Shown here one piece after another: positions 15,221-62,924 of a stretch of DNA of 64,000 bases. The translations under genes and the position numbers were made by a program. This DNA is from Geosiphon pyriformis (lineage: Eukaryota; Glomeromycota; Glomeromycetes; Archaeosporales; Geosiphonaceae). The stretch is taken from contig JAAOMT010000697.1 in assembly GCA_016748015.1 (NCBI GenBank), positions 473,034-537,033 on the forward strand. Direction: 5' to 3'. A model generated the notes under the pieces. The model was given only the letters and a program-made list of their open reading frames with translations. It did no database searches and was not told the DNA's origin. How positions within the stretch are numbered: position 1 is the first letter of the stretch; each line of letters starts with the position of its first letter.

Positions 15221-15880
15221 AATTTTTTTTTTTAATTTAAAGTTTTTTTTTTACAAATATATTTAATATAAAACTAAATTAAATTTTTAACTAATAATAG
15301 ATTATAAAATTATTAAAACCAAATATAAAAATTGTATATTAGAAATAATTTTTTTTAAAATTATGTTAAATTATTTTTGTATTAAAATATTTTTTTTTAA
15401 ATTAAGATTAAATAATTTTTTAATTTATAAAAATATGTTTAAATATAAATAAGTTTTATTAATTTTATAAATAAAACAAAAAATTTATTTATATTTAAAA
15501 TAATATTTTTAATCTTAAAATTAATTAAAATAATTATTATTTTTATTGTATTTATAAAAATATTATTAATTTTAAAAAATCTATTAATTATATTTAAAAT
15601 ACTTTGTATAATTATATAATTATTTTTAATTTATTTATAATTACTATAAATAAAAAGTTACATTAATTTTGATTTTAATTCTGCCAATTATGATTATAAA
15701 CAATTAAATTTACTTAATATTTAAATAAAGTTTTATTTTTTTTTATTTTACATAAAAAAAAAATTATAAAAAATTTTCTAAAAAAAAAAATACTTTATTT
15801 TGGTTTAAATTATTAAGATTTTGTATTTTTTTAATAATTTAAAATTTATTAAAAATTTTTTTTTTTTTTATTCATTTTAA
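15221..15880. other. AT-rich spacer, nothing recognised
   Basis: Almost pure A and T with poly-A and poly-T tracts between the 3' ends of two LINEs in opposite orientation. No gene, LTR or RNA could be recognised. Confidence 0.6.
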
Positions 15881-15989
15881 TGAATGAAATCCAAATACTG
15901 CCTAGTTTTATACATTAAAGAAATAATCTATACTAAGTATAAATCATGCTTTTTCTATATGTGACCAGCCACTTAGGCTGATCAGAACA

Positions 15990-18900
15990 ACACTATGCAG
16001 CTATATAAACTGAAACTGAATCACCTACTCTAGAAAAAAACAAATAAGATTTGTAAAAGCCAAAATATATGCCAAAAGCTTTAGCTATGCCAAGCAATTT
16101 AACCACACCAGCAGAAAACCCTGAAGCCAAACCAGAGACTGACATGAGAGTGGAACTATTTAAAGAAATCAAGCTATTTTTCTCCATATATGCATAATGT
16201 TTAGCACAAACTAACCAAATATCATCTCTAAAAGCAAGACTAAGGAAGCACACAAATTTAACAACCTTTTAACAAGCAATCTTGAGATCACAGAAAATGG
16301 AAACAGCCTTGCAAAAAAACCATTAAGAACACAACCCTTAAAAAGAGCCATTGACAAAAAAGAATCAGAAATACAGATTGACAGCAACCGAAGCACACTC
16401 AAAAAAAAATAGAAGAGACCCGAAAGTAACTTCCAAGAACTCACATGGAATTCCAGTAACTAATGCCAAGCAGGCTCATTAACTCTACAGAAAAACACAT
16501 GATCTGACATTTTTACCTTACTACAGTACAGACACAATACACTGAGATAATGTTTATTATAGAGGCACTTACGAATGACCACTGGCAACTGATAATGCAA
16601 AGCTTTCATGAAATAAGTGCATGTATTAGCCAATGCTTTGCTGATATAACCAGTGGCCATGTGCAAATCAGGATGTCATACAAACAAAGAACAGTGCCAA
16701 TCAACCTCAGAAAGCAAACCACAAGCCAAAAACTTTGAACCAGAGCCAAACTCTTAATGCACACGACAAACAGAATAATAAACATCATGAACAAAATGTC
16801 TAGAATTGTTAGAAATAATATTGCTATTGGCCATCAAAAAACATTCACTCAGATAAGGAAGAAGAAACCAGCCAGAAATAGAAGTGTTACCAGTAATTGC
16901 ATCAGTATGCTCATTTTCCAAGATGTTAGAGTGATCTTTTACCTTGTGCCAACTAATCAAATTTTTATTGTAAATGACATTAACAATATACTAATGTTCA
17001 ATCCAGTACTGATTACAAAAATTGGGACACACCAAATCCAATTCTGACTTGCAAGCATCCAAAGCAGATTGACTATCTAAAAACAAGTGAACAGAACTAG
17101 ACAAAGGAACACACTTTAGAGCCAATGCAATAGCCTGCATCTCAACCAAAGTAGATGACATTAAACCTGATATGTCAATGCCCAAACCCAAATCAATGTC
17201 TTTGAAAAAAACAACAGCACCAGCCCTGCAGCCAACTGTACTTAAACCTCTTAAAGACCCATCTGTATATACAAATAAACTATTGGTACTTACCCAAAAC
17301 AGACAATTACATACAGATACAAAACTGCTTGAGTTAAGAATATTTATGGAACCAATACTACTCAATGCTAAAGGAAGATTCAAGAACAAATCCATATTAT
17401 TGAGAAATGCAGAGGAAAGTTTGAACCACTCAGGAACAGGGCCATGAGGGTCCAGCTTTTTTTACCACTTAAATATGTACCAATTATAGACATTACCATG
17501 ATGATCACAAAGCTAATTCACAAAAGCAATGCCATACTATTGAAGAAAAGGAAAGAACTTGAAAAACCTTAGCTTGTCAAGAACATCAGACATGGGAATT
17601 CTACCATACAAGCAAAAAGGATTGACCAGAGAGCCACCAATTGACAGATTGCAATCATAAAAAATACAAACCAAGCCTGCTAAAAAATTATTAGAAGCAC
17701 TAACACAAACACAAACAGGAAAGCTCAATGGATGAACAGGATGCTAATAAAGAACTTGCAAATCATGAGACCTATGAGAAAACAATTGATCCAGAATTCC
17801 ACCAGCATTTATAAAGCTAACAAGAGAAGCAATCTTACTCTCAAATTGAATTTGCACAAAAGATTTCAAACCATAAAAGGAGAGGTGATGAATTGTATCA
17901 CTAGAAAAGTCAAGAGACAGGCCAGACTTAAGCTTCAGCCCTTTACAAATCATTGCATCCCATTTATTGTACACACCAACTGGAACAAAACTAAACTGTG
18001 TCCTATAACTGATTATAAGATGCAGAACTGCTGACACCAAATACAAAAACTGTTTATTTGAGACTGCTTTTCTCAAAACCAAATTGGTGAAAAAGTGGAT
18101 GTTCAAATGCACTTTAGCCAAACTAGGCTTCAAAAGACCTTTAGTCAAAAAAAAAATACCCAGATATTAATGAAATTCACACTTTTTAGCAATAGAGATA
18201 GATGCACCACTGATAGAGAGAAAAAGAATGCTAACTCTCCTATTAATAGGAATGGCTACTGTTTTATTATTATTGATTGAAATATTATTGATCCAAAAGA
18301 AATTACTAGCAATATTGAAAATATGTTGAGTAGCAATTTGACTGTTACCAATCTAAATTGTATCATTAACAAAGGTGCCAGCAGCAAAAAAGAAGGAAAA
18401 CCCAGTCTGAAATTCAATGCAACCACTTTTGGAAACAAAATATGAATTTAGTTTATACTCACATTCACTTTCCTAATGCTTGATTTCACACAACAAAGGA
18501 TCATAAAATATGTGTCACAGAAGGGGAAAAAAAACTTTTCCTTAATCCAAACTATCATGCACACAATAACCATCTGTCAAACCAAAATCTGTCATAACTC
18601 TGTTGGTATGATCTTTATGAATATTACCAAAGAACTGAATAAATTTGCTGTATATTTTAATCCTGACCAGGCTCTTCTCAAAATGTTTTTAGCCAACAGA
18701 ATTGTATGCTTTTTGCATGTTTTGTAGAACCAGCAAAAGCTCTTGGTTCTTTTCCAAAGCATTTTTAATAACTGAACCAATTGCAAAAATGGGAGATTAA
18801 GTTGATGTGTTCTTTAAAACCAAAAAATTGTCCCCACAAAAAACATCAAAAGTGCTGTATGCCAAAAAAATCCTATCAGAGAGAATTTTGAAAAGAATCT

Positions 18901-20520
18901 TGCAAGCTGTTTCGATCAAAGCAATAGGACAAGTATTCATAAGAACACCTTCTTACTCATATGGTTTAGGAATTATTGAGACCCAAGCCTTCTTTTAAAA
19001 TTCAGGCACCAACTTACAAGAAAAACAAAAGTTCAAAAACACCAAAAACATATTCAGAATTGACTTGTTACAATGTTTCTAAAGCTTGTTCATGATACTT
19101 GAGAGACCAGCAGCTTTGCTATCAGGCAGATTGGAAATTACATCAAATAGCTCACTAAACTCAATTAAACACATTATACCAAAAAAGGCTTTATCAAAAA
19201 CATAATCTAAAGGTTAATATTGATGAGACCAATTATTAAAGACATCAACAACCACACCATGCTTCCTGGTTTAACTTTTCATAATAATGTTTACTTTAAA
19301 TTTAACTGAATCGGGTTCCAAAATAAGCTTATCATCAACAACCAGGTGGTTCAGAACCACTTTGCAGAAAAGGTGCTCCAAAACACTCCTGATAGTATAA
19401 CCTTTATTTGTTTCGAAACTTTCCATCCTCTTCTCTATAGCAGCTCTGATGTTCATTTTCTTAGCTGCCAGAGATTCAGCCAGCTTGGATACACAATATG
19501 ACTTCCTTATACTAAAGAAAGTAGAATAAACACACTTAGAGTTTGCACCAGAGTTAATAAGATCTTGAACAACTGAGGTTTTTATATGGTCCAAAAAGTC
19601 CCAGCACTTTATAAGAGAGACAAAACTAATAACATTTCTTTTACAAGATGCCTTGACAATTTTTGAGACCAAAAGCTTCAACTTATGAAACCTCGAAGAA
19701 ACTTTGGTGAAAACACTATCAAAACTCTTGAACCATTTCTTTCTAAATATTTTATTTGCTAAAAGAATTATTATCTTGTGTAAAATGTCCCATATGGCAT
19801 CTAGCTCTGAAAACTTGACAGCAGTAATGAACTCATCAGAAAACATTCTAGTATTGGCCAACATAGCATCTTTAAATTTTTCTCACTTATTGTTATCAGC
19901 ACCCTTGAAATTAAACTTCCAATGATTCTTATTAGTCTGCTTATGAAGAGAGTGTAACTAAACATCCAGCAAACCACTCAAACCCACCAACACAGAAATG
20001 GCTTGATGATTAGTGTTAAAGTGCTCACTAACATCTACAACACTTCATTTTAAAACTGCATTAACCAAATTAAAAGAAACCAATACATAATCAATTGTCT
20101 TTTTTGCACTTCTTGAATTTTTCCATGTAAGATTCTTTACAACCAAACTACCTAGCAGAGAATTGACCAGCTCCAGATTGAGCCACTTTTTAAAACTAGC
20201 ACATTTATGCAAACTGTTTTCATTGAAATCCCCACCAAGAATAATAAAAGAAGATTTATTTACAGCTTTTGCAATGAAAGAGTTGATTTTACCAGTTTGA
20301 GAGAACCAAACCACTGAAGAAGCACTAATGTAGAGCCCCAAAATTGACATGGAAAGTTTATTCTTGAAGAGCAGCTTAATTGACAGAAGCCAACCAGATA
20401 CCTCAGAAACTTTGCTTATATGTTATACCAAAAAAATGTTCATGATAATTACCAGAATCTAAACCAGACATAAAAATCTAAATGCCACTAAATTTATTTA
20501 TGATTCATGGACGGATCTTA
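15990..20520 (-). pseudogene. LINE M1 ORF2: endonuclease, RT, RNase H, zinc site; broken
   Basis: ORF2 would nick target DNA and copy the element RNA into it. The endonuclease lies at about 20500-19980: LGLYIS, GGDFNEN and KKTIDYVLVS are clear, and the final catalytic motif reads TNHQAISV, so the usual Asp before His has become Asn. RT follows at about 19870-18000, with the catalytic box near 18370 reading FVND instead of FVDD. RNase H is at 17300-16990: VYTDGSL, STLVEMQA and DSQSALDAC keep the Asp, Glu and Asp. The C-terminal zinc site reads VLCLYCSKVKMSDHVFFC at about 16530. Many stops and shifts separate these pieces. Confidence 0.8.
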
Positions 20521-21039
20521 TCTTTCAACTTAGTTTCAATAACAATAGAGATCAAATTGTTCATATTCTTATGCCAATAAATAATATTATTTTGTTTCAC
20601 AGGATTGTTTATTCCCTTAATGTTGCAGATGGCAACTTTTTAAACTAAATCACTTATTGAAAAGGAAGTTGTGATACCAAATCTGCACTAAGACTATCTA
20701 TTTTGGCTGAAAAGCTCAGAACTGTTTCCATCAGACACTTTATGCTGTCTTCCAACTTTGACACCAAAGACATATCAAATAATACCACTTCCATAACAGT
20801 CTTGCCACCAGTAGATGCACCCGAACTCTTACTCATCACTACATCTGCCCCTTGATCTTGTAATAAAGGAGTTATCAATGGCTGACATCTAAGACTAGGC
20901 TGGGAAACCATTGGCCCAAGTGTATCTAACCTCTTAGCCAGCTTACCAACCTGCTCTGCAAGATTGGCAAAACTGCACTCAAGAGTGACAAACCTATCAT
21001 TTACATCCATTATAACCAGTAGGGATGGCTTCATTTCTG

Positions 21040-22560
21040 AAGAGGAGCCAACTTTTGCTGAAATACCATGACCAAAGAAAAGAAAGAAAAAAGACTTACC
21101 AGCAACTTTTGCTTAAAAGAGACCACCAAAAAAAACAGGATAAGCAACTGGAACCAAACATTTAGCATAGATTGCAGCCAGTCTGCTTTTATCTGCATCT
21201 AAAAGCACCTTACATAATAGTACTCCAAAGAAAATTTTTCTACCAGTAGCACAGCCTAATAACATATGACCCAATTTTTCATACTTAGTGCACCCAGCAA
21301 GAACCAGACATAACCAGTGCAGATTGGTGCTCCTTAGTACTAGTGTGGTTCTCATGACAGCATTCAGTAACTCAGCAGAATCAAAGCAAATAACAGCACA
21401 TCTAGTCTGAGCATATATAACTGGATAACAATCAATGACACACGTTTTCCCACCCACGGCTCTAACAAAGTCTCAGATATTATGAACATTTGTTCTCATT
21501 GGTAGTGTATAGAACAGTGCCTTATGCTGATCTCTCACATCCCATGTTTTTTTATCCAAATCTACTATAGCAACACATATCGCATTTTTCCTAATTAAAA
21601 TAGACCATTTTGCTGTGACCAAATTAGCATGATCTAATTGCTCAAACTTAATCACAGCCTTCTGCCATAGTCTAATTAGTTGCATCTTGATCATTTTAAT
21701 ATTCCCAAACTCAAACAGCACAGTGCGCACAGTCTCAGCCAATGTCCCAATTGGTATCTCTTTTATGACCACAGTTTGATCTGATCGCTCAGTAAATTTT
21801 TTAAGATTGGTGTTTACCATGATCTTTGCACTTGCAGTTTTATTGGTGGCTTTTATTAGACCCAATTCAGAAGTGAATGTCATCCTGATAATCTCAGCAA
21901 ATTTTGAGAGGGTAGATGCCTTCCCAAAACCATTGATTCTTGAAAATAATTTTTTGATTACTGTGCATTTTTCTTAAGAAGATTTACTTACTACTTTGTC
22001 CAGCCCAATATCCAAAGCAAAAGACTTATGAACAGAAATATTAACCAAGTTCTTTAAAAGAGGAGGGAGGACTACAGGTTTGTCCAAAAAAATGTTATTA
22101 TCATCATCATTCAAAAAGTTGATTTTCCTTAGTGGCTTATCCAGTGCTCTTTTGGTCTGAGTTTTTGAACTCTTAGGAGTATGGTCCGAGTCTCTACCAG
22201 TAAAAGTGCCACCCTTTCCATAATCAAAGCTGGTTTCTTTAACCAAACATTCCTTCTCCATATCCACACTATCAGACTTAGTAGTATTACCAGTCTTAAA
22301 CTCTTAAGAATGACTACTTGATACCTTAGCAGCAGCAAATTTTCTATTACCAATATTATCCTCCAAAGCACTATTTTTTTTCTTCTTTCTAGACTCAGTA
22401 GACTTAATACAAATATTAAAACTAGGCTTTATAATAGACTTATTCAGAACGGCAATACTAGAGCCAATGGTGGCCTCATAATTAAGTAGAAACAGTTTGG
22501 ATTTATCATGCTGAATGTTGAAAAAACTTTTTTCAGAAAAATTTTTGGCTTTTTTTTGGG
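21040..22560 (-). pseudogene. LINE M1 ORF1: gag-like RNA-binding protein, broken
   Basis: ORF1 proteins of such LINEs coat the element RNA. The acidic N-terminal part runs to about 21974. Next comes a segment with RRM-like spacing at 21790-21600 (VVIKEIPIGTLAETVRTVLF, then a block ending AKWSILI). The CCHC knuckle lies at about 21292-21250 and reads CTKYEKLGHMLLGC, with the second Cys changed to Tyr by one G-to-A change. A coiled or Leu-rich tail at 21034-20654 carries LAEQVGKLAKRLDTLG. Frame changes occur near 21973, 21470 and 21113. Confidence 0.7.
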
Positions 22561-22599
22561 AATTTGGGATGAACGAAAGAAAGAAATTAATTTTATTAA

Positions 22600-24840
22600 T
22601 ATAATTATTATATATATATTTTTTTATTTGCTTAACGAGTGCAGCCCAAAAACAATTTAGTACTATACACCAAAAAAATGATCTAAACTAAATGTTAATC
22701 ATGCATTTTTTACACATGACTAGTTACTTGGACTAATCAAAGATACACTACACTGAAACAATAAAAGGTGAGAATAATCCCAACTCACAAATTTTTTCAA
22801 TAACACTATTTAGATTCCTAAAATCAAAAATAAACTCACTAAAAAATAATCTAGTAGATTTAACACTACTCCTAACCTTAGCACCTGACATCTACCACAA
22901 AGCTATGACATGTTTAAAAGTGTCTTCACTTAAGAGAAAAAGTTTAGCAGCCTGTATATCATCATAATCCATGTCACCAAAGTCAACTTCAGATCTAAGA
23001 CAAGCAATATTCTTAGACACACCAACCAAAAGATTGGCAAAATTGTTAGAAGCATATTTCATAGAAAGAAGATCTTTCTCTGACTAAATAGTCTTAACAG
23101 CATTATTATCAAGGAGACAAGATACCAAGACAACCAAAGAACCAACAGGCTCAACAATAGACTTTACCAAAGCAGCCAAATCTGAAATTTGCTTTTTCAA
23201 AGAGTTCAATCTAGACCCAATAGCAGAATCAATAACAGCCACAGGAGGGGTGAAAGCCACCAAAAAAGGAAATTCAGACATAACAGAAGAAGCAAATGCC
23301 TTAGCATAAGACAAAGAACCAACAAAATGTGGTTTGAATATCTTGGGAGCCTTAGAAAAGAGAGATGAAGCAACTTTACAGTCTACAGCCAAGTGATCTG
23401 TTTCTTGACACCAAAAACAATGCCAATAATTAGAAGTCTTTTATCAGATATGGCACTTTCTAAGCATATCAGTATTGGTCCAAATCAGCTTGAGAGCCAA
23501 ACATAACTAGAACAAAGTGGAGATGATGACCAGAATTAGAAGACCAAGAAATAAAACAAGACCGGCCACCAACCTGAAAAATCATATTACTGATTTCAAA
23601 GGCAGTACAGCCAGGAGGAAGGTTGATTAACTTGTTCTTAAACTTATCACGAGACAAAATAGTCTTATTTTAATTCACCAAGAGAAGGATTCTAACACAA
23701 TTCTTGTCCACCAATACTGACCAATGATTCAAAGCAGACATAGCAGAATCTAACTTCTTAAAATGAACCACCACATATTGCCAAATGCCAATAGGCTTTA
23801 GCACAACATGAGTAACCATACCAAAAACACTAAGAGCTGTCTTAATGTCAGCAGCAGACACACCCAAAGGCACATTACACAGTACAACAGCAGCAGAAAG
23901 GGATCCAGACTCAGAAACCACCAAAGACTTAGCAATTTTAAGAATGACAAGACAAACAGAACTTGTAAGCTTAACTAAAAATACAGCATCTAAAGAGATT
24001 TGAGAAGCAAATTCCACACAAAAAAGCTTTATATTGTCTTTTAAAACAGACTTAGCACCCAAAAAACCATATACAGACTGAAAAACAGCCTTAACATAAG
24101 CCAATTTGATTTTAAAAATAGCACCAGGCACCAGAGTGGAAGCCACTCATCCAGCAAATCTTTGATAACTAGCAATAGTTTCCCAAGCACCACTAAAAGT
24201 AGCACCAGAAACTAGAAAAGGAGATAATTCAGTTTCCATCTGATCAGTCCAGTTCACAAGAACAGGTGACCCAACAGGAAGAGATTGTTTTGCTTCTAAA
24301 ATCAGCAATGATTTGCTGGAAGACACCATATTTGGCAACACAGCCAGTGGTTGATCTTGGCCCATTTTGGATGACATACCAGATGATGCTATGGAGATCT
24401 CATCTAAGATCTCATTTGGAACCACAAAGGGATTTAGTGTAATAATGGCAGAGGCAGGCAACTGCTCCTACTTTTCTAAACTTTTGGTCTTTTTGACCAT
24501 TTTCTTTGAAGAGGAGGTACAAGAAGCACCAGATGTTGAATACTTTTGGGCTCTTAGTAGGGGTGGAGGTAACACTGAGACTAACCCAAGTGTGTCTCTT
24601 TGAGAAAACTTTGACTAGTGAAAAATCAGTCAAAGATAAGGAAGTTGCTTCAGTGGTTATTAAAAACAACTTTTCATGATTACTGGGTAAAGGAAAGGCT
24701 TTTAAAACGTTTTGTCTAGTTGCTTTTACAACAGAGAGAGCTTTTTTGGTTGAAATTTTATTAGATATTTTAGGACAAATATCAGGTGCAGCTTTTTTAC
24801 TCTTTGCTCTGGTCATGGTCATAAAATTAAGGAGACAAAG
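22600..24840 (-). mobile_element. ORF1-only half-LINE with LINE 3' end
   Basis: This 2.2 kb element has a gag-like ORF and then goes straight into a LINE-type 3' UTR at about 22760-22625, which aligns with the 3' UTRs at 62490-62610 and 15990-15890. No endonuclease, RT or RNase H sequence is present. Its ORF1 is related to, but clearly diverged from, that of the full LINEs next door, so it is not a simple internal deletion of M1. The layout resembles the HAL1 half-LINEs of mammals, which have ORF1 but depend on another element for RT. Dependence here is an inference. Confidence 0.6.
22880..24822 (-). pseudogene. gag-like ORF1 with RRM-like fold and intact CCHC knuckle
   Basis: Translation can start at ATG 24822 (MTMTRAKSKKAAPDICPK), a basic N-terminus. 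The frame shifts near 24470 and continues as PASAIITLNPFVVPNEIL. It passes a TGA at about 24147-24149 into the segment to 23670. That segment contains AAVVLCNVPLGVSAADIKTA and a block ending NHWSVLVDKN, which match the RRM-like part of the LINE ORF1 (VLKEIPVGTS and SKWSILIEKD). After more stops, PPGCTAFEISNMIFQVGGRS matches the LINE segment around GEKTCFID. The knuckle at about 23435-23385 reads CFWCQETDHLAVDC, a perfect C-x2-C-x4-H-x4-C. A Leu- and Val-rich tail follows to 23084. About one frameshift and five stops make it inactive. Confidence 0.6.
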
Positions 24841-24992
24841 AGTTTTTTTTTTATTATATATATAATCAAAAAATTTATTAAATTTTTGTATATTTAATCT
24901 GTTTTTTAAGTGTATTTATTTAACAAAATTATATATTTAATTTAAGTTATTTATTTAAAAAAAATATAAAATTTACTAATTTTTAATTTTTA

Positions 24993-50373: not shown

Positions 50374-53130
50374 ATATTAAGATATGCAGTCATTTTTTGC
50401 CAACATACATAAAGATCAGATTGATAGGATGATAACTGATTTTGGACTTTTAGATAGTTACAAGATATATAATAGATTAGATTAAGATAAAGTTTTTTCT
50501 CCTTTTTTCTGGAGAATTTTTTATGATTTACTTTTGTGTGAAGTTAAAAAACATAAGCACTTGTATAGATACTGAAATAATATAAAGTTTGTGGTTAGAA
50601 CTGGCAAAATTGAGATTATTAAAAAAAAACATTATTTTTTGTTGTTAGTACCTTTGTTAATGATATAATTTAAGTCAAAAGTAGCCAAGCTTTTACTCAA
50701 TACATTTTGAATATTGTTAGTAAGTTTTTTAATATTAATAACATTTCAATTAATAATAAAAAGACAGTGGTTATTTCTATCAATCAAAGTGTTAAAACTG
50801 TCTTATTAATAATTAGTGGTTTGCCAATTATAATTGCTAAAAAAAATAAATTACACAAATACTTAAGAATTTTTTTGTTAACTAAAGATTTTTTTAAGTC
50901 TAATTTGGTTGAAGCTTATGCCAATATCAGATTTTTTTCTAATGTGATATTAAAAAAAGCAATTACAAATAAACAATTTTTTTATTTGGTCTTAGTTGTT
51001 TTATAGCTTATAGTTAGTTATCAGTCACAGTTTAATTTTGTTTTATTAAGTGTGTGTTATAAGTAAAATGTAATAATCAAAAAAAATTTTAAAGCCAAAA
51101 CCAGTTTATTAGATGATTTTTTTAGTAAAAATTTGCATTATCTATTCTTGTATAGTTTAAAGCTTTTTAAGCAAATACAGTTCAAAGAAAAAATGGTTAT
51201 ATTAATTGCTTTTTCTAATGTATTGAGCATTTTTAGACATCTGTTTAAACATAGATTTTTGGATTTATAGGTTTTGAAGTGGTCTTTTTTAAACTTTTTG
51301 CAGTTTTTTATTAAGTTGTATATCAGTTCAATAAACAATTTTTTAACTAAGATGGTAAAAATTTTTTTGGACAATGATTTATCTTTAGTAAACAATTTGT
51401 TTAATGTATTTTGTAGTTTTAGTAAATTCTCAATATTAGACATTTTGGAAAAATTTCTGTATTATAGTTCTGTTTTTTCTCTAAAACAGTTTAGAATTGC
51501 TTTTGGTAATAGACTTTTAGACAAAAAAAAGAATGTAATAAGTTAAAAAACATTTCATTAATAGAAAAAATTAGATCCAAGAGGTCTTGTGTTTTATTGG
51601 TTCAAGTTAATGTCTAAATTTTTAATTGATAAGAGTTTTTTAATAGTTGATTTTGCTAATATTAGAGAATTAATTGGTCTGGATATTTTAAAATCTAAAA
51701 AGTTTTCTAATGTATGAAAAAACTTGCTTGAGATTTGGTTTGATTCTGTTAAAGTTTACACAGACAGTTTTTTAAAGTATGCTGGTTTTGCTGAAGTTAC
51801 TAATAAGGTGGCTGTCTACTTTTTAGCTGTGAATGCAGGTTTTGGTGTTAAGATGTGTAGTTTTTTGTCTTTTACAATAACTGGATTACAGGCTGTTATA
51901 CTGTTTTTGGAGTATGTTTTATCTTTTTGTTTAGTGGTTTTATATCTGAATAGCCAATTTGTTATTAATATGTGTTTCTAAAATTTTTTTTGCTATATAA
52001 AATTTTTATAATTAGTGTTGGATGAAAAAAAAGCATATTGTTAATTTAATTAAAAATAAAAATCTTTTGTTATATGGGTATTTCAAATAATATTTGAGCT
52101 GATAAAATAGCAAATAAAATTGCTTATTTTCTTTTTTTTCTGCCAATTGGAATTTAAAAATGTTTCATAATAGCTAAGAATATGACTATGTTTAACAATA
52201 CTCATTATTTTGTTTATAATTTATACAGATTTGTTTGTCATGCTCAATAGAAAACTGGTCTTGATGTGATTTTAATTGTGTTAATTAGAGAGGTAGATTG
52301 GTTAGCTACCACAAAAGTTTAGCATTTTAACTTACATATGCTTTCTGAGTTTACTAATAGAAAGTCTGTAAATATATATATATACTTAATAAAAACTGTA
52401 TATAAGCAACTACTAATAGCAGTTAAAAAAAGATTGTATAATAGATTATATTTTGGTATGTTATATTTACTGTATAGTAAGATAGAATTATTTAACTATG
52501 TTTTTGCTTATATTGGAAATAATAAGATTCGAAAAAATATTTTGGTAGAAGCTTCTGAAATATAGATGTCATTAGTAAATGCTTGCTGTCTGCTCTTTTC
52601 TGTTGTTCTACAAACATTTTTTCAGTGTTTATTAAATATAAGTTTGTATATAACAATTTATAAGAAATTTGTGCTAAGAAACTAATATGTTAAAGCTGCT
52701 ACAGTTTTTAATAAAAAAGTAAAAACAGTTTCTGTTTTTGTTAAATATGTGAAACATTTGGTAAAATTGTATTGGACTAAAATATGGCTTATAAGATAAA
52801 AGAATAAGATAAACATAAAAAAAGCTGGATTGGTCAAAAATAGTAATGTGGTTTCAGATTTGCTTTGTTGTATAGTGTTTATATTATTTAATAGAGTGGT
52901 TTGATTGCTTAGTATAATAGAGTTTTTTACAATTAATTTTAGTAAACATAAATAGTGTCTTTTTTTTTTAGTTTAGGTAAAAATATATATATTAATATAA
53001 ATATTTAGTGTTGTTTTATCTGGTTTGAGTGGCTAACTACATGTAGTAAAAATGTAAGTCATATTTAGTTTGAACCACTTAGTTTGGTTCTATATACTAA
53101 ATAATTGTTAAACTTTACTCATTAAATATT
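50374..53130 (+). pseudogene. LINE copy 2, 3' portion (RT, RNase H, C-terminal zinc site)
   Basis: This continues the copy interrupted at 47307. The RT catalytic box at about 50650 reads FVND for FVDD. The open stretch 50707-51006 aligns with the part after it (FFNINNISINNKKTVVISIN for FFHINDISINNNKTVAIPIN). RNase H at 51724-51981 keeps VYTD but has GLQA where ELQA is needed and LNSQ for SDSQ. The C-terminal zinc region at 52338-52520 has LYLLYSKIELFNYVFAY, so all its zinc ligands are lost. The 3' UTR and tail end at about 53130. Confidence 0.8.
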
Positions 53131-53139
53131 TAATAATAA

Positions 53140-53393
53140 AAAAACTTATTAATAATTAAATAACTTATTAAAAAGATAAAAAACATTATAATAAATTAAT
53201 TATTATGTTAAAAAGTAAAATACCAAATATTAAAAATTATTAATATTTAAATTTCTGTTTTTTATATAAAAAAATTTATCATAAAAATTTTTAAATTTAT
53301 TAAAATTTTAAAGAATAAGTTTTTGTCTAAAATTTCAATCTTTATAAATAGTTCTATTAAAAACTTTCGTTTTTTTAATGCTATTAATAATAC
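53140..53393 (+). pseudogene. LINE copy 3, left fragment (up to RNase H)
   Basis: The end of this stretch (about 53325-53393) aligns with the LINE segment coding for NADSLSVYTDGSLKN, followed by the solo LTR. The first 180 bp are too decayed to place with confidence. Confidence 0.45.
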
Positions 53394-55720: not shown

Positions 55721-55935
55721 TAAAATATAATACAATATATTTATTTGTAATATTTAATGCTTTTAATAAGATATAATTTACAAAAAATAACAAATTAAAT
55801 AATAATTAGCAAAAATAGCAAAATTAAATTACATAAAATAAATTATTTTTTTATAAAAATAGCTTTATAATAATTATTATTTTAATGTTTTATGTATTAA
55901 ATATAATAAGATAAAATACATAATATTATTAAAAC
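55721..55935. other. AT-rich spacer between two LINEs
   Basis: About 215 bp of A/T-rich sequence between the tail of copy 3 and the 5' end of copy 4. Nothing recognised. Confidence 0.5.
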
Positions 55936-56029
55936 TTTTTTTCTCTCCTTCGTCCAAAATTCCCAAAAAAGAGTCAAAAGTTTTTTGATAAAGAAGTTAT
56001 TTTCACAATTCAGTACGATAAATCCAAAC

Positions 56030-57820
56030 CCTTTATTCTTAACTATGAGGCCACTGTTGGCTGTAGTATTGCTGTTATGAAAAAGATTGCTAAAGTTTCT
56101 GGCTCTAATGATGGCTTCAAACCTGTTCTTTTAAAGAAAAAGAGAAGAGATGGTGCTCTAAAAAATAGTTCTGGTAATAAAGTTGTTGGTACTAAGGTTT
56201 AAAATAGTCATTCATGAGGTTCAGAAACCAGCAATACCACTGAGTTTGATAGCATTGATATGGAAGAAGAATGTCTGGTAGAAAAAACTAGCTTCAGGCA
56301 AAAAAGCGGAGAAGAGTCTGGTGGTATTGATACTGATATAATGCCTAAGGGTCCCAAGAGGATTGTTACCAAGTGTACTCTTGGGAAGCCTCTTGGCACT
56401 ATTAATTTCGGCATGGAAAATGATGATGATGATGATATTTTGGATGGGTCACTCTCTCTCTCTCCCTCTCTCTCTCTCAAACATATGGTGCAGATCTCGG
56501 TCAGAAAATCTTTTGCTCTAGATATTGATCTTGAAGTGGTTGCTGACAAGTCATCTTAAGAGAAACTAGCTTATGTCAGAAAAATTTTTTCTGGTGTGAA
56601 TGATTTTGGGGAGACCTCTACCCCCTTAAAATTTGGTGGTATTATTTGGGCATCTTTCACTTCTAATAAGGCGATGATGGTGACGGCAAAAATGGCAAAT
56701 GATCGTGGTATTGTGATAAACACCAATCTCAAGTGCTCTGGTGACAATCGTATGAATCGGGCTATTGTGTTGAAAGAAATTCCAGTGGGAACTTCTGTGG
56801 AGGCTGTGCATGCTGCAGTGTCTAAATTTAGAAAGATTAAGACGAACAAAATGCAGTTGGTGGGTTTGTGGCAGAAGATGATCATTGAATTAGAAGATTA
56901 AATACAGACTGATTTATTGGCTTCTAAGTGGTCCATCCTCATTGAGAAAGATGTGGTTTGTATGACCAGAGCTGATATTGACAAACAATCATGGGATGCC
57001 AAGAATAGTTTTAGGGCTTTGCTACATACTCTCCCCATGGAAACCACAGCTCATGATTTGTGGAACTTTATTGGTTCTATTGGTGAGAAAACTTGCTTCA
57101 TTGATCACAATCTCTTGAATTATTCTTATGCCTGTTGTGCCTCTGTGTGTTTTGGTTCTGAATTGGATCTGGTTAATGCAATGGCAGTAACTCTGGTTAT
57201 AAAGAGTGTTGGTCTCCACTGGTCTCATCTTTCTTTGGCGTTGTGTGTGGTTTGCAAGAATTTTGGCCATATGTCTCAGGACCAGCTCAGACTGGTGAGA
57301 ATTTATGCAAAAAAATCTGCTCCCATCTTCCATCTCCTGGCATTTGGTGGTAAAACTTGGGTGTCGGTTGTTGGTGCTTCTCCTATTCACCCCCCCTCTG
57401 GTAGCAAGTCACAATTTGGTTCTATTATTAATAGTAAACCTCTTCCTCCCGTCGTAGATGAATTGGAAGAACATCTAGTCAGTATTGAAAGCAGTCTCAT
57501 CAGCCTCGCGGAACAAATTGGTGAGTTGGCTAAGAGGTTGAATTCACTCGTGCTGGCAGTTTCCCAGCCTAACCCTGGATATTAGCTGCCAGTGACCCCC
57601 CCATCACAGAATCTGGAGGGTGATATAGTGATGGGAACAGCTTTGGGTAAGACCACTAGTGATAAGACTGCTGTGATTGTGAACTCATCAGTGTCTTCCC
57701 AAGTTATTAGGTTGGAAAATATGTTAGAAGGACTCTCCAAATCTGTGTTAAGCTTGTCTGCTTGTTTTGAAAGTTTGGTTTTGGCTGGTGGTGCAAACTC
57801 TCAACTCTCTTCTCAATGAG
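56030..57820 (+). pseudogene. LINE copy 4 ORF1, gag-like, five stop interruptions or so
   Basis: The N-terminal part is charged (KKKRRDGALKNSS near 56150) and is followed by the open stretch 56260-56559. A CT-repeat at 56451-56480 has replaced the coding sequence that M1 has at this place, changing it to Ser/Leu repeats. The RRM-like part is at 56760-56990 (AIVLKEIPVGTSVEAVHAAV, then LASKWSILIEKD). A truncated knuckle is at 57245-57290 (CVVCKNFGHMS), whose last Cys is missing. The coiled tail at 57480-57560 has LAEQIGELAKRLNSL. Stops at 56898 and 57583 break the frame. No clear start codon is visible upstream, so the true start is unknown. Confidence 0.75.
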
Positions 57821-57831
57821 TGAACTCGTTT

Positions 57832-60800
57832 GGAAGATCACCACATGCAATGTTAGAGGAATGACCAATCCTACGAAACAGGATGACATTATTTGTTGAC
57901 ACAACAACATGAACAATTTGATTTCAATTTTTATGGAAACAAAGTTAAAGAGGAGGGTTCATCCTTGGATCATTAACAAATTTGATAGTGTAAGGGTGTT
58001 TATATCTGGCTTGAATTCTGGTTATCTGGGTGTTGGTGTTGTAATTGTCATGAATTCTTTTTTGGCAAAACATGTGTGCAAGGTTTCTGAGGTGCCTGGC
58101 TGGCTCTTATCTATTAAGTTGCTGTTTAAGAATAAACTTTCAGTATCGATTTTGGGGCTTTATGCAGGCACTTTATTGGTGGTTTGGTTTTCTCAGGCTG
58201 GTGAAATTAACTCTCTCATCGCAAAGGCTGTTAATAAATCTTCTTTCGTTATTTTTGGAGGTGATTTCAATGAAGATGGTTTGCGTAAAAGTGCAAGTTT
58301 TAAGAGATGTCTCAATTTGGGGCTAGTCAACTCTTTGTCAGGTAGTCTGGTTGTGAAAAGTCTTATATGGAAGAATTCAAGAGGTGTGAAAAAGACTATT
58401 AATTATGTGTTTGTCTCCTCAAGTCTGGTCAGTGTGATCATATATCGTAATGTTTTGAAGGTTGGTGAACATTATGACATGGATTACCAGGCTGTTTCTG
58501 TGTTCATAGGCTTGGATGGGCTTTTGAATGCACAGTTGAATTCTTTTCGAAAACAGGCATATAAGGATCATTGGAAGTTCAATTTTTAAGGGTGCTGATG
58601 AGGTTAGATGAAACAATTTTAAAGGTGCCATGTTGGCCAATGCTACAATGTTCTCAGATGAGTTCGCCACTTCCATGCAGTTTTTGGACTTGGATGCAAT
58701 ATGGGATATTGTTTGCAAGATATTGGTTCTCTTAACTAGTGAAGTGTTTAAGAAAAAGTGGTTTAAGGATTTCGATAATGTTTTCACCAAGGAATTTTTG
58801 AGTTTTCACAAATTAGAGCTTTTGGTTTCCAAGATTGTCAAGACCTTATGTGAGAAGTGTGTTGCAAATTTTGAGTCTTTTATGGGACATTGGGTTTCTT
58901 TGGACGATGTTAGGACTTCGGTTGTATGAAGTTTGGTGGATTCTGATGCTGGCGCTGATGATGTTTGTTCTGCTCTCTTTGGTGCTAGGAGATCTTATTG
59001 CGCATCCAAGCTTGTTGAGTCTTTGAGGGCTAAAGAAACAAACATCAGGTCTGTTATAGATAAGAGAATGGAGAGTTTTGAGGTGGATAAAGGTTACACA
59101 ATCAGAAGTGTACTGGAATGACCCTTTCACAAAGTGGTTTTGGATCATTTGGTCATGGATGATGAGTTAATTTTTGAGTCTAATTTGGTAAAATCTAAAG
59201 TTGACAATATTATGGAAAGATGGACCAGGAAGTGGTTAGTGGTTGATGATGTTTCTGATGCTTGGTCTCATTAGTACCGACCTTTGAACTATGTTTTTGA
59301 TGAGGCTTTCTTTGGAGTGATGTGTGCGATTGATTTTGATGAGTTGCATCATGTGGTCTCTAATCTGCCTGATGGCAAAGCTGCTGGTCTTTCAAGTATC
59401 TCTAATGAACTATGGAAACATTGTAATAAGTCAGTTTTGGGTTTGCTTCTGGTTCTGTTGAATTCTTGTCTATCTTGTGAATCAATACCTGGTTCTTGGA
59501 AAGAGGCTTGAGTTTCAATGATTCCCAAGCCCTATAAGTGGGAGGGTGTTCTTATGAATACTTGTCCTATTGCTTTGATCGAAACTGCCTACAAAATTCT
59601 CTCCAAGATTCTTTCGGACAGGATCTCACTGGCTTGCAGCTCTCATGATGTCTTATATGGTGACAATTTTTCAGTTTTAAAGGGTATGACAACTCAGTTA
59701 CCTATTTTTGCTGTTGGTTTAGTTGTTGAGGATGCTCTGGAGAAAAACTGGGAGCTCTGGTTGGTTTTACAGGACATACGAAAAGCTTATGATTTGGTTG
59801 GCTGGAAACACCTCGAGAAAAGTTTGGTCAGGATTAAGATGTGTAGCAAATTTATTCGGTTTTTTGCAGTATTCATAGGAATTGCACCAATTGTGTAATG
59901 ACAAATTTTGGTTTGATGGATGGCTATTATGTGCACAATAGTCTGGATCAAGGAGAGGTTTTTTCCCCACTTCTGTGGCGTATATTTTATAATCCTCTAT
60001 TGTGTGAAGTCAAGTGTCAAAGAAGTGTGTGTGAATATAGGTTGAATTCTCATTTTGTGTCTAAAAGTGGTCATATCGAATCTCAGACTGGGCTATCTTC
60101 CTTTTTTGCTGCTGGTGCTTTTGTCGATGATATAATCTGGGTTGGTAGCAGTCAAAGTGCTACTCAACATATTCTCAATGTAGCTGGCGAATTTTTTCAT
60201 ATTAATGACATTTCAATCAATAATAACAAAACAGTGGCAATTCCCATTAATAGTAGAGTCAGCAATCCTTTTCTTTCCATTAGTGGCTCACTGATCTCCA
60301 TTGCCAAAAGGGGTGAATTTTATCAGTACTTGGATATTTTTCTCTCAACTGAAGATCTTTCAAAGCCTAGTTTGGCTAAGACAAATTCTGATGTTTGTTT
60401 TTTTATTAATCTGGTCTTGAGGAAGGCAGTTTCAGATAAGCAATTTTTGTATCTGGTGTCGGCAGTCTTTCATTCTATAATCAGCTATAGAATGCAATTC
60501 AGCTTGGTTCCTGTTGGCATGTGCAACAAATAGGACACTATGGTTCACAAATATTTGAAACTTAAATCTGGTCTCTCACAGGATTTTCTTAGTGATACAA
60601 TCTACCATCCTTCTTTTTATGGTTTAAAGTCCTTTTAACAGTGTCAGTCAGAAAGTAAGATTGCTTCACTTATCAGTTTCACAAACTCTATCAGGATTTT
60701 GGGGCATATGTTTAGTTACAAGTCTCATGACTTGCAAGTTCTGTGCTGGCGGCCTATTCATCTCTTGATCTCTCCTACTCGCATTTGTGTCAGTGTTTCT

Positions 60801-62495
60801 AATAATTTCTTGGCTGGTGTGGTTTCCATCCTTCTTGACTGCAAGCTGTCTTTGGGTGGTTTCTTGGCCAGTGCTTTTCGGTTTTGTGGTGGGGTTTTTA
60901 TGTTTGTTGTTCTTGGCGAGTCTTTGTTTTTTAAGTTTTTGCCATCCCTTTGGCATTATGGTGTTGTTTTCGTGGACCAGCTTCAGGATTGCTATGGTAA
61001 TGTCTTTAACTGGCTTATCTTTAAGTGATGGAAGAGGCTGGATCCTTGTGGTCCAGTCCTTGAGTGGTTTGAACGTTCAGTCAAGTTTCTTGTGGCCTCC
61101 CATTTTTCTCCCTCAGTTTCAGTTGGTGTTGGTCCTGTTAACATTTGTAGTTCTGATGATTTTGTTTCTGTATGTGATTGTTTCTCTCAGGTTAATGCTG
61201 ATAGTTTGTCTGTGTATACGGATGGGTCATTAAAAAATTTGGGCACGACTGGTTGTAAGGCTGGGGCTGCTGCATTTTTTGAGGACATTAACTTGGGTTT
61301 GAGTATTAGTGTTCAGGGTTTGGTGTCATCTACTTTGGCAGAATTGCAGGCTATAGCGTTGGCTCTGGAGTGTGTATCTATGGCTTATTCTGTTTGTCTG
61401 TTTTCAGACAGTCAGGCAGCCTTGGATGCTTGCATGTCAGAGGTTGACTTGGTGTATCCTGACTTTCACAATCGGTACTGGGTCAAATGCTGGCATATTA
61501 GGAATGTTATTCACAGTAAGAATTTAAGGGTTAGCTGGCACAAGGTTAAGAGTCACTCTGGTGTATCGGGGAATGATCGAGCCAACAGCATCGCTGACGC
61601 TGCAACTTTCTATAATTGGTTTCTCTCTCCTCGTGTTGATAAATGTTTTTTGTTAGCGGATAATGGTATTGTGTCTAGTAACTCTAGACACTTTGTTTGA
61701 GACATTTTTTGTGCTGTTTGTCAGATGCATTGGGAGATCAGTTCTGGTTCTGAGTTTCTACTTAAAGATTTGCACTTGGATGTTGATTGGCCTAGCTCTT
61801 TCAGAATTTGGCATCCTAATTCACATATGGCAACAGGTTTTATTAGCAGGCATACCGCTGACGTTCGTACTTACTTAATGAAGGCTTTGTACCATCAGTT
61901 TCCCGTGGCTGTTCGAAAGTGTGTTTATGATAGATGTTACCCGAGTGTTCTGTGTCTGTATTGTGGTGAGATAGAGGTATCTGATCATGTGTTTTCTTGT
62001 GTAATTAATGATCCAGCTCATTGTTGGGTTTTGGAATCCTGTATGTCTTCTTGGAAGGCAATTTCTAGTCTTTCCATCTCTTTTTCTAATGTATTGCAGC
62101 TGTTGTCGACTTGTGCTTCAGATTTCCTGGTGTCCTCAGCTCTTTACAAGGGTTTTGTTTTCAGAAGATGGTTTTGGGAGGCTGTTTCAGTCTTCCATAA
62201 TCCCAAGGTTGCTGGCGTCAAGATTACTGATTTTGTACGCTCCCTTTGTGTCGCTTTCAGAAATAACATTTGGTTGGTCCATGCCAAGCATTGTGCATAC
62301 ATGAAAAAGAATGGTCTGATTCTGGTGGATGGCTTGATTCCTGTCTTGGTTTCTGGTTTGGTTTTAAGGTTTTCGGGTGGTGTGATTAAATTGCTTGGTA
62401 TTGCTGAAGCTTTTGGCATCCGTTTTGGTTTTCGCAAATCTTGTTCATTTTTCTCAGGTATTGGTGACTCAGTTTCTATTAATATAGATGTGTAG
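57832..62495 (+). pseudogene. LINE copy 4 ORF2: endonuclease, RT, RNase H, zinc site; multiple stops
   Basis: The endonuclease (57832-58600) shows TCNVRG, METK, LGLYAG, GGDFNED and KKTINYVFVS. The last catalytic motif reads MDYQAVSV, so the catalytic His has become Tyr. RT covers about 59290-60640: QDIRKAYDLVGW (motif A), then FVDDIIWVG at 60120, with both catalytic Asp kept. RNase H (61200-61620) keeps VYTDGSL, STLAELQA, SDSQAALDAC and SGNDRANSIAD, so all catalytic residues are present. At about 61960-62000 LCLYCGEIEVSDHVFSC gives a C-x2-C-x7-H-x3-C zinc site. Stops occur at about 58588, 58927, 59119, 59509, 59896, 60531 and 61698, and many can be explained by C-to-T or G-to-A changes. The end is the TAG at 62493-62495. 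Confidence 0.85.
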
Positions 62496-62636
62496 TGTTG
62501 TTTTGACTGGCTTGAGTGGCTGGTCATGTATAGAAAGTACATGATTCACACTTAGTTTAAATTATTTCTTTGATGTATAGTTCTAAGTTGCATTTGGACT
62601 TCACTCGTTAAATAAATAAATAAATAAAAATAAAAT
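62496..62636 (+). other. LINE copy 4 3' UTR and tail
   Basis: The 3' UTR has a stem CATGTA-tagaaag-TACATG at about 62525-62543, followed by ACTTAGTTTAAAT. The tail is (TAAA)n. The same order of segments is seen in the 3' UTRs at 22760-22625 (minus), 15990-15890 (minus), 53010-53130, 15100-15215 and 63150-63250. Confidence 0.7.
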
Positions 62637-62924
62637 TTTTAATTTATAGTTTTATATACAAGATAGATTTAATTATTTATAAAAATGTATTAAATAAACA
62701 TTTTTTGCTTTAATAATTTAAAACTAATATATGTTTAAATATTTTTTAGTGTTTTAGTCTTTAATTATCTCTATTAATAATAATAATTTATATATAATAA
62801 TATATAAAAATTTTGTTTGTTTTTAACAATATAAAAACTATTATATTAAAAATTATTGTTTTGCTTATAAGATAATAATTAATGTTTGATAATTTGACTT
62901 TAAACTTAAAACTACATTAAAAAA

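Follow-up and report, generated by a model that had tools for sequence, protein, structure and literature searches.

Gag-only half-LINEs without reverse transcriptase in Geosiphon pyriformis, probably mobilised by LINEs through exchangeable 3' tails

The analysed window, a 64,000-nucleotide stretch of a Geosiphon pyriformis contig (JAAOMT010000697.1), contained, at positions 22619-24843 on the minus strand, a decayed member of a family of repeats about 2,275 bp long. Members of this family were laid out as a short leader, an ORF1 of about 700 codons, a LINE-type 3' UTR of about 140 nt that begins at the stop codon, and an A-tail. We consider it probable (about 0.83) that these elements, here called half-LINEs, form a long-lived, RT-less and gag-only lineage of non-LTR elements that is mobilised in trans by LINE ORF2 proteins via exchangeable 3' tails. 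A more far-reaching version, to which we give somewhat less than even odds, would be that of an old and independent gag lineage that lacks an RT and has exploited several families of LINEs within a single fungal lineage; its coat would be held under selection, and it would change partner by exchanging one modular 3' recognition tail for another at the stop codon, which would uncouple the evolution of the coat from that of replicase specificity.

The window copy (ORF1 type A, tail type A) ran from its 5' end at 24843 to an A-tail at about 22619-22623. Both ends recurred in the 20 copies fetched with flanks, except for the start of L021 and the 3' end of L022; the 5' end ACTCTTTGTCTCCTTAATTTTATG and the type A 3' end ...CGTTAAGCAAATAAA, followed by the A-tail, lay at the edges of homology in this set (L009-L028 and the window copy). 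The gag-like ORF1 (22748..24822, minus strand; first ATG 24822, stop TAG 22748-22750) was broken, with deletions of 44 bp and 11 bp relative to its relatives and seven stops in the shared frame. Within it, on the same strand, lay a first RRM-like region (23676..23894), placed by its likeness to residues 320-375 of the relative L062, a second RRM-like region (23478..23651, a position partly counted by hand) corresponding to Pfam RRM_1 in L062, and a CCHC zinc knuckle, CFWCQETDHLAVDC, of the form C-x2-C-x4-H-x4-C (23378..23419), corresponding to Pfam zf-CCHC in L062. A leucine-rich stretch beyond the knuckle (23090..23212, minus strand) reads as a putative coiled coil. No endonuclease, RT or RNase H was found in the window element (22619-24843, minus strand), in agreement with the earlier note, and Rfam gave no match in 22590-24870 at E values up to 1 and none at the gathering score in the window. 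The LINE-type 3' UTR (22620..22747, minus strand; tail type A) was 77% identical over 147 nt to that of a full LINE, copy 4 (55930..62642, approximate ends, plus strand), and 70% identical over 150 nt to that of the neighbouring full LINE M1 (15849..22580, approximate ends, minus strand). Homology to both began at about the stop codon and ran to the A-tail, confirming the earlier statement that ORF1 goes directly into the 3' UTR type of the full LINEs. RNase H was found in copy 4, and its RVT_1 match was slightly under the Pfam cut-off.

A genome-wide DNA search with the window element gave at least 43 matches, its own included; at least 40 were long (79-100% identity), and at least 35 of these spanned over 2,100 of the query's 2,241 bases. 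The 27-nt 5' end matched the genome at 433 places when up to three mismatches were allowed (at 70 places perfectly), and its reversed control matched at none. Only 41 genomic matches were obtained with the end of the type A tail, and we therefore examined what the other 5' ends run into. Unit length was 2,262-2,279 bp in 17 of 21 units (L009-L028 and the window copy). Also among the 21 were the window unit (2,221 bp, with its two deletions), L017 (2,255 bp), L022, which was without its 3' end, and L021, whose start was mis-called by the script. The family comprised several subfamilies, with ORF1/tail types A, B, C, D and E; in the ORF1 protein search, where the best 126 of 3,826 candidates were scored, the ORF1 rows of the types were 59-77% identical to L010. 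More diverged half-LINE-like copies were seen close beside another copy in L027 (5316-6903, C346:41080 onward; 66-72%) and L024 (455-2267; 76%), which suggests older subfamilies.

The genome was then the place to look for other copies with the same junction, as had been proposed. Of 35 copies selected through a 5' end, an ORF1 or an open frame, blind to the tail, 34 showed the ORF1-to-3' UTR junction and none entered ORF2; the remaining copy (L058) had neither a tail nor a LINE peptide match. Twelve of the 35 were a sample from the listed perfect matches among the 433 5' ends. Eleven of these passed, some 2.0-2.2 kb in, into a LINE-type 3' UTR (ten tails were found by BLAST and that of L052 by eye and alignment; the L050 tail was incomplete), and no LINE peptide match was found in any of the 12. 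All 20 copies picked by ORF1, which were more distant rows of the ORF1 search (59-65% identical to L010) and were judged by eye over 241 bases each, went from the ORF1 stop into a LINE-type tail, with ORF2 in none of them. The three copies picked by open frame (L061-L063) likewise entered a LINE-type tail, again with ORF2 in 0 of 3, and ORF2 followed ORF1 in 0 of the 21 copies with flanks (window copy and L009-L028). In L058 (C238:254191-254891), the sequence about 2 kb past a perfect half-LINE 5' end looked unrelated; from this we read it as a truncated or rearranged copy.

The 21 aligned copies had one reading frame of 709 codons in common, and ORF1 was intact and free of stops in L061, L062 and L063 (701-708 aa from the first ATG). 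The L062 protein matched Pfam RRM_1 at residues 415-468 (E 3.2e-6; 27.3 bits, curated cut-off 20.7) and zf-CCHC at residues 486-501 (E 5.2e-5; 23.6 bits, curated cut-off 20.8), showing that the gag-like protein with an RRM-like part and a CCHC knuckle, which had been recognised by reading, is found above cut-offs in a relative. Neither profile matched the window ORF1 piece 23670-24146 or the searched ORF1 pieces of copy 4 and M1. Residues 320-375 of L062 weakly matched structure 1whx (phmmer E 0.0062), which we take to be an RRM structure. The window ORF1 was about 23-29% identical to the M1 ORF1 over the matched part. Over the 166-residue region in common with M1 ORF1, half-LINE ORF1 rows were 52-87% identical to one another and the seven resident LINE ORF1s were 37-61% identical to one another; identity between half-LINE and LINE ORF1s was 13-33%. 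In a maximum-likelihood tree (165 columns), the 14 half-LINE ORF1 rows and the 7 LINE ORF1s were split by a branch with 100/100 support, bearing out the claim that this ORF1 is clearly different from those of M1 and copy 4.

In the 709-codon frame of the 21 copies, 96 stops were counted in 14,768 codon cells. The eight codon places with at least five stops were Trp or Gln codons in the other copies, as expected from decay. Changes in the copies were mainly C>T and G>A (12.7% of C and 10.4% of G in columns with a 70% majority) and, with ancestral letters guessed from the copies, were most frequent at CpG (47-53%, compared with 15-29% in other contexts). Per copy, 18-24% of the guessed former C/G sites had changed, compared with 0.7-4% of A/T sites (21 copies). 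Such C:G>T:A decay suggests that the repeats were subject to cytosine methylation or a RIP-like process. Within types A and B there was no third-position excess (6.5, 5.4 and 4.9% at codon positions 1, 2 and 3), because the copies differ mainly by C:G>T:A decay after insertion; for this reason the test for selection compared subfamilies. Between types A/B (20 rows, without L021) and type C (3 copies chosen for open frames), fixed differences at sites steady on each side numbered 34/559, 23/576 and 86/582 at codon positions 1, 2 and 3 (chi-square p 1.7e-11). Transversions alone, which C:G>T:A decay does not make, numbered 12, 5 and 22 at the three positions (p 0.004). The third-position excess between A/B and C indicated that ORF1 was under purifying selection while the subfamilies split. 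As ORF2 was absent from every type seen, the selected copies would already have been RT-less.

One ORF1 body carries two tail types, with the switch at the stop codon. Tail A was present in 16 of the 21 copies and tail B in five (that of L022 incomplete). The A-B difference in ORF1 was 0.137, compared with 0.140 within A, showing that the ORF1 body is the same; in the 3' UTR it was 0.380, compared with 0.122 within A. When followed in 150-column steps, A-B divergence jumped at the step holding the stop codon. A fifth tail, E, stood behind an ORF1 end that looked D-like by eye in L055, and was 82% identical to the tail of LINE L032. Type A tails had their best LINE match at 71-82% over about 145 nt and their best match to a B, C or D half-LINE tail at 66-67%. 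No close LINE match to any half-LINE tail was found among the 10 LINE tails: the maximum was 82% (types A and E with L032), and rows of types B, C and D reached 58-71%. The half-LINE tails of alignment A1 were picked by hand. In the tail tree, the 25 half-LINE tails never formed one group (0% of 200 bootstraps), and two label changes sufficed; the AU test kept a single clade of half-LINE tails as not rejected (p 0.08). Among the best 40 B-tail matches, 18 of unassigned owner were read upstream, and all 18 stood behind a half-LINE ORF1, with a LINE ORF2 in front of the B-like tail in none of the 18. These owners count against a simple capture model, and the source of tail B may therefore be another half-LINE lineage, or a LINE that was lost or is too diverged.

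A stem-loop with a 9-bp stem and a 5-nt loop was predicted in the tails, starting 8 nt after the stop codon (9 nt in type B); in the window copy it lies at 22717..22739 (minus strand). The 34 tails chosen for this analysis were 10 LINE and 24 half-LINE tails. Tail E was left out, one of 35 tails sought (HA_L026) was dropped because its stop context was not found, and 10 of 16 LINE tails were kept, the others (two of L015, L017, L025, L012 and a reversed L013 piece) being decayed or not tails, a choice that may favour clean stems. Across the 34 tails, 91.5% of cells were paired, compared with 82.2% after shuffling; double-change cells numbered 39, compared with 15.6, and the covariation score was 0.489, compared with 0.305. 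None of 500 shuffles was as high for any of these three measures, with the caveat that related rows may beat shuffles even without structure. The number of pairs with a double change (5; 317 of 500 shuffles) and of further pair types (15; 65 of 500) showed no clear excess. Pairing was 19-54% when the stem was slid by 1-3 columns. LINE tails alone had 85 of 90 cells paired (10 of 500 shuffles as high), half-LINE tails 195 of 216 (0 of 500), and type A alone 49 of 54 (29 of 500). Pairing in types B, C and D taken alone was not above shuffles, indicating that the signal lies mainly between types, and in the LINEs; a signal between types is as expected if they diverged under constraint. RNAalifold, unaided, predicted the inner six pairs. 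The window copy folded at -5.8 kcal/mol (z -3.6) and copy 4 gave z -3.3. Folding relative to shuffled sequence was weak for L061, L062 and LINE L032 (z -0.4 to -1.4), and covariation was therefore relied on. The compensatory changes support a predicted stem-loop that is common to LINEs and half-LINEs. A second candidate hairpin, at about columns 34-52 of alignment A1, was dropped because its register shifts between copies.

The window copy was flanked by a probable target duplication on the minus strand, with the 5' copy ATTATATATATAATAA at 24851..24866 and the 3' copy AATATATATATAATAA at 22605..22620; this pair of 16 nt with one mismatch was AT-rich, of low complexity and weak alone. Among the 19 copies with two defined ends, which excludes L021 and L022, 7 had a match of at least 14 nt (one mismatch) between their flanks, compared with 7.3% when flanks were paired wrongly (p 2.6e-4). 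The search for target duplications, which the earlier note had advised, thus gave a statistically supported excess for the group, while single cases stayed weak in AT-rich DNA. L043 and L030 had the 3' end but lacked the 5' part, a state that fits target-primed reverse transcription.

From these observations we infer mobilisation in trans by a LINE ORF2 protein. The single protein encoded by the half-LINE RNA, an ORF1/gag that combines RRM-like parts with a CCHC knuckle, would presumably coat that RNA. The RNA would end in a 3' UTR homologous to those of the resident LINEs, with the stem-loop just past the stop. A LINE ORF2 protein would most likely recognise this tail and, by target-primed reverse transcription, copy the RNA into AT-rich targets. 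LINE ORF2 ends were seen in open frames of 580-656 aa, the matched part being free of stops (e.g., C314:854211-854969 and C357:2783-3541), showing that less decayed LINEs exist that could be partners.

Half-LINEs could instead have arisen by deletion of ORF2 from an autonomous LINE carrying this ORF1, one that is rare, lost or absent from the assembly, in which case selection on ORF1 would reflect the parent and the tails would follow their parents. The ORF2 check covered a sample of the 433 5' ends and the best 126 of the 3,826 ORF1 candidates, which leaves such a parent some room. However, 0 of the 35 tail-blind copies continued into ORF2, 34 of them having a tail; types A, B, C, D and E all ended after ORF1 despite their ORF1 divergence (59-77% to L010); and the seven LINE ORF1s fell in a separate clade (100/100). 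We therefore regard a hidden autonomous parent as unlikely.

A lesser chance still attaches to the view that these are retrocopies of a host gene, gag-like and domesticated (compare L1TD1), which LINEs would have copied through poly(A) alone. One protein, an A-tail and no RT are features that such retrocopies would have. Against this view stand the homology to LINE 3' UTRs, which extends from about the stop codon to the A-tail, and the covarying stem-loop in common with LINEs, and the copies are diverged subfamilies with several tails rather than one gene; we give this account very little weight. A one-off deletion in a single M1-like LINE copy is brought to mind by M1, which directly adjoins the window element. 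Its probability is close to nil: it is ruled out by the at least 40 long genomic copies, the window's own included, with the same ends in those fetched, and the ORF1 is about 27% identical to that of M1 over the matched part. The earlier reading, that the element is not simply M1 with a deletion, was upheld by the same copies and by an ORF1 identity to M1 of about 23-29%. A lineage of gag-only elements moved by LINE proteins is accordingly preferred.

Half-LINEs resemble HAL1 in having ORF1 only, with no endonuclease, RT or RNase H (ORF2 in 0 of 35 tail-blind copies), in a 3' end in common with a LINE of the same genome (71-82% for type A; weaker, 58-71%, for B, C and D), and in being multi-copy elements with A-tails, some 5' truncation and target duplications as a group excess only. 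HAL1 ORF1s are close to L1 ORF1, whereas half-LINE ORF1s form one deeply diverged clade at 13-33% identity to the seven resident LINE ORF1s. HAL1 proper was rejected, as the half-LINE ORF1 is not closely derived from a resident LINE ORF1 (13-33%; separate clade, 100/100). Five tail types, an RRM/CCHC ORF1, a structured 3' tail and a fungal host also distinguish half-LINEs from HAL1, which is described as a non-autonomous, ORF1p-only L1 derivative of mammals with several origins (PMC5753468). HeT-A of Drosophila is described as encoding only a Gag-like protein and as forming tandem arrays at chromosome ends (PMC3776773). A Gag-like sole product is likewise what half-LINEs have; in contrast to HeT-A, half-LINE copies are dispersed, though close pairs occur (L024, L027). 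HeT-A must borrow its RT. A HeT-A-type telomeric element was rejected: 0 of the 20 flank-fetched copies were in a tandem array, L024 and L027 holding a second copy nearby. One of the 20 (C269:2111) lay within 5 kb of a contig end, and contig ends may not be telomeres. A SINE, which encodes no protein and has a pol III promoter, was ruled out by the shared open frame of 709 codons.

In zebrafish, the 3' tail stem-loop of the stringent-type LINEs ZfL2-1 and ZfL2-2 is described as being recognised by ORF2 (PMC4176376), and LINE-SINE pairs are described as sharing 3' ends with a stem-loop (PMC6510757). The half-LINE tail is like that of stringent-type LINEs in its conserved 3' stem-loop (covariation, with two measures not above shuffles). 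Binding of ORF2 to the tail was shown for ZfL2-1 and ZfL2-2, whereas for half-LINEs it is presumed from the sequence. Unlike the SINE of a LINE-SINE pair, the non-autonomous half-LINE codes for a protein.

No report of ORF1-only LINEs in fungi was found in searches of an open-licence collection of papers. In a paper on the TEs of Rhizophagus irregularis, two thirds of these elements are said to be unclassified (PMC11075540), and the terms non-autonomous, ORF1, gag and zinc knuckle were absent from its main text. Some of the repeats left unclassified in such genomes could turn out to be half-LINEs. Several subfamilies and tail types, intact copies and the covarying stem-loop go beyond the earlier note. 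A diversified, gag-bearing and RT-less lineage with hundreds of copies would show that non-LTR elements can persist for long as 'gag without pol'. With one ORF1 and two tails, the A/B pair offers a natural experiment on the shares of the 3' RNA and of ORF1p in the choice of LINE partner.

A reading of M1 and the half-LINE as a single longer element was rejected because copies at other loci stop at the same A-tail and M1 sequence does not directly follow. An M1-like LINE 5' end was seen 0-450 bp from a half-LINE 3' end, in the same orientation, both in the window (22580-22620) and in L030 (1-1026, 1476-2469); in L030 the two are about 450 bp apart, and the M1-like end was taken as a separate insertion. 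This closeness is possibly due to chance in AT-rich targets. At 52990-53153 the window also contained a fragment of a LINE-type 3' tail with 70% identity to copy 4, apart from both full LINEs.
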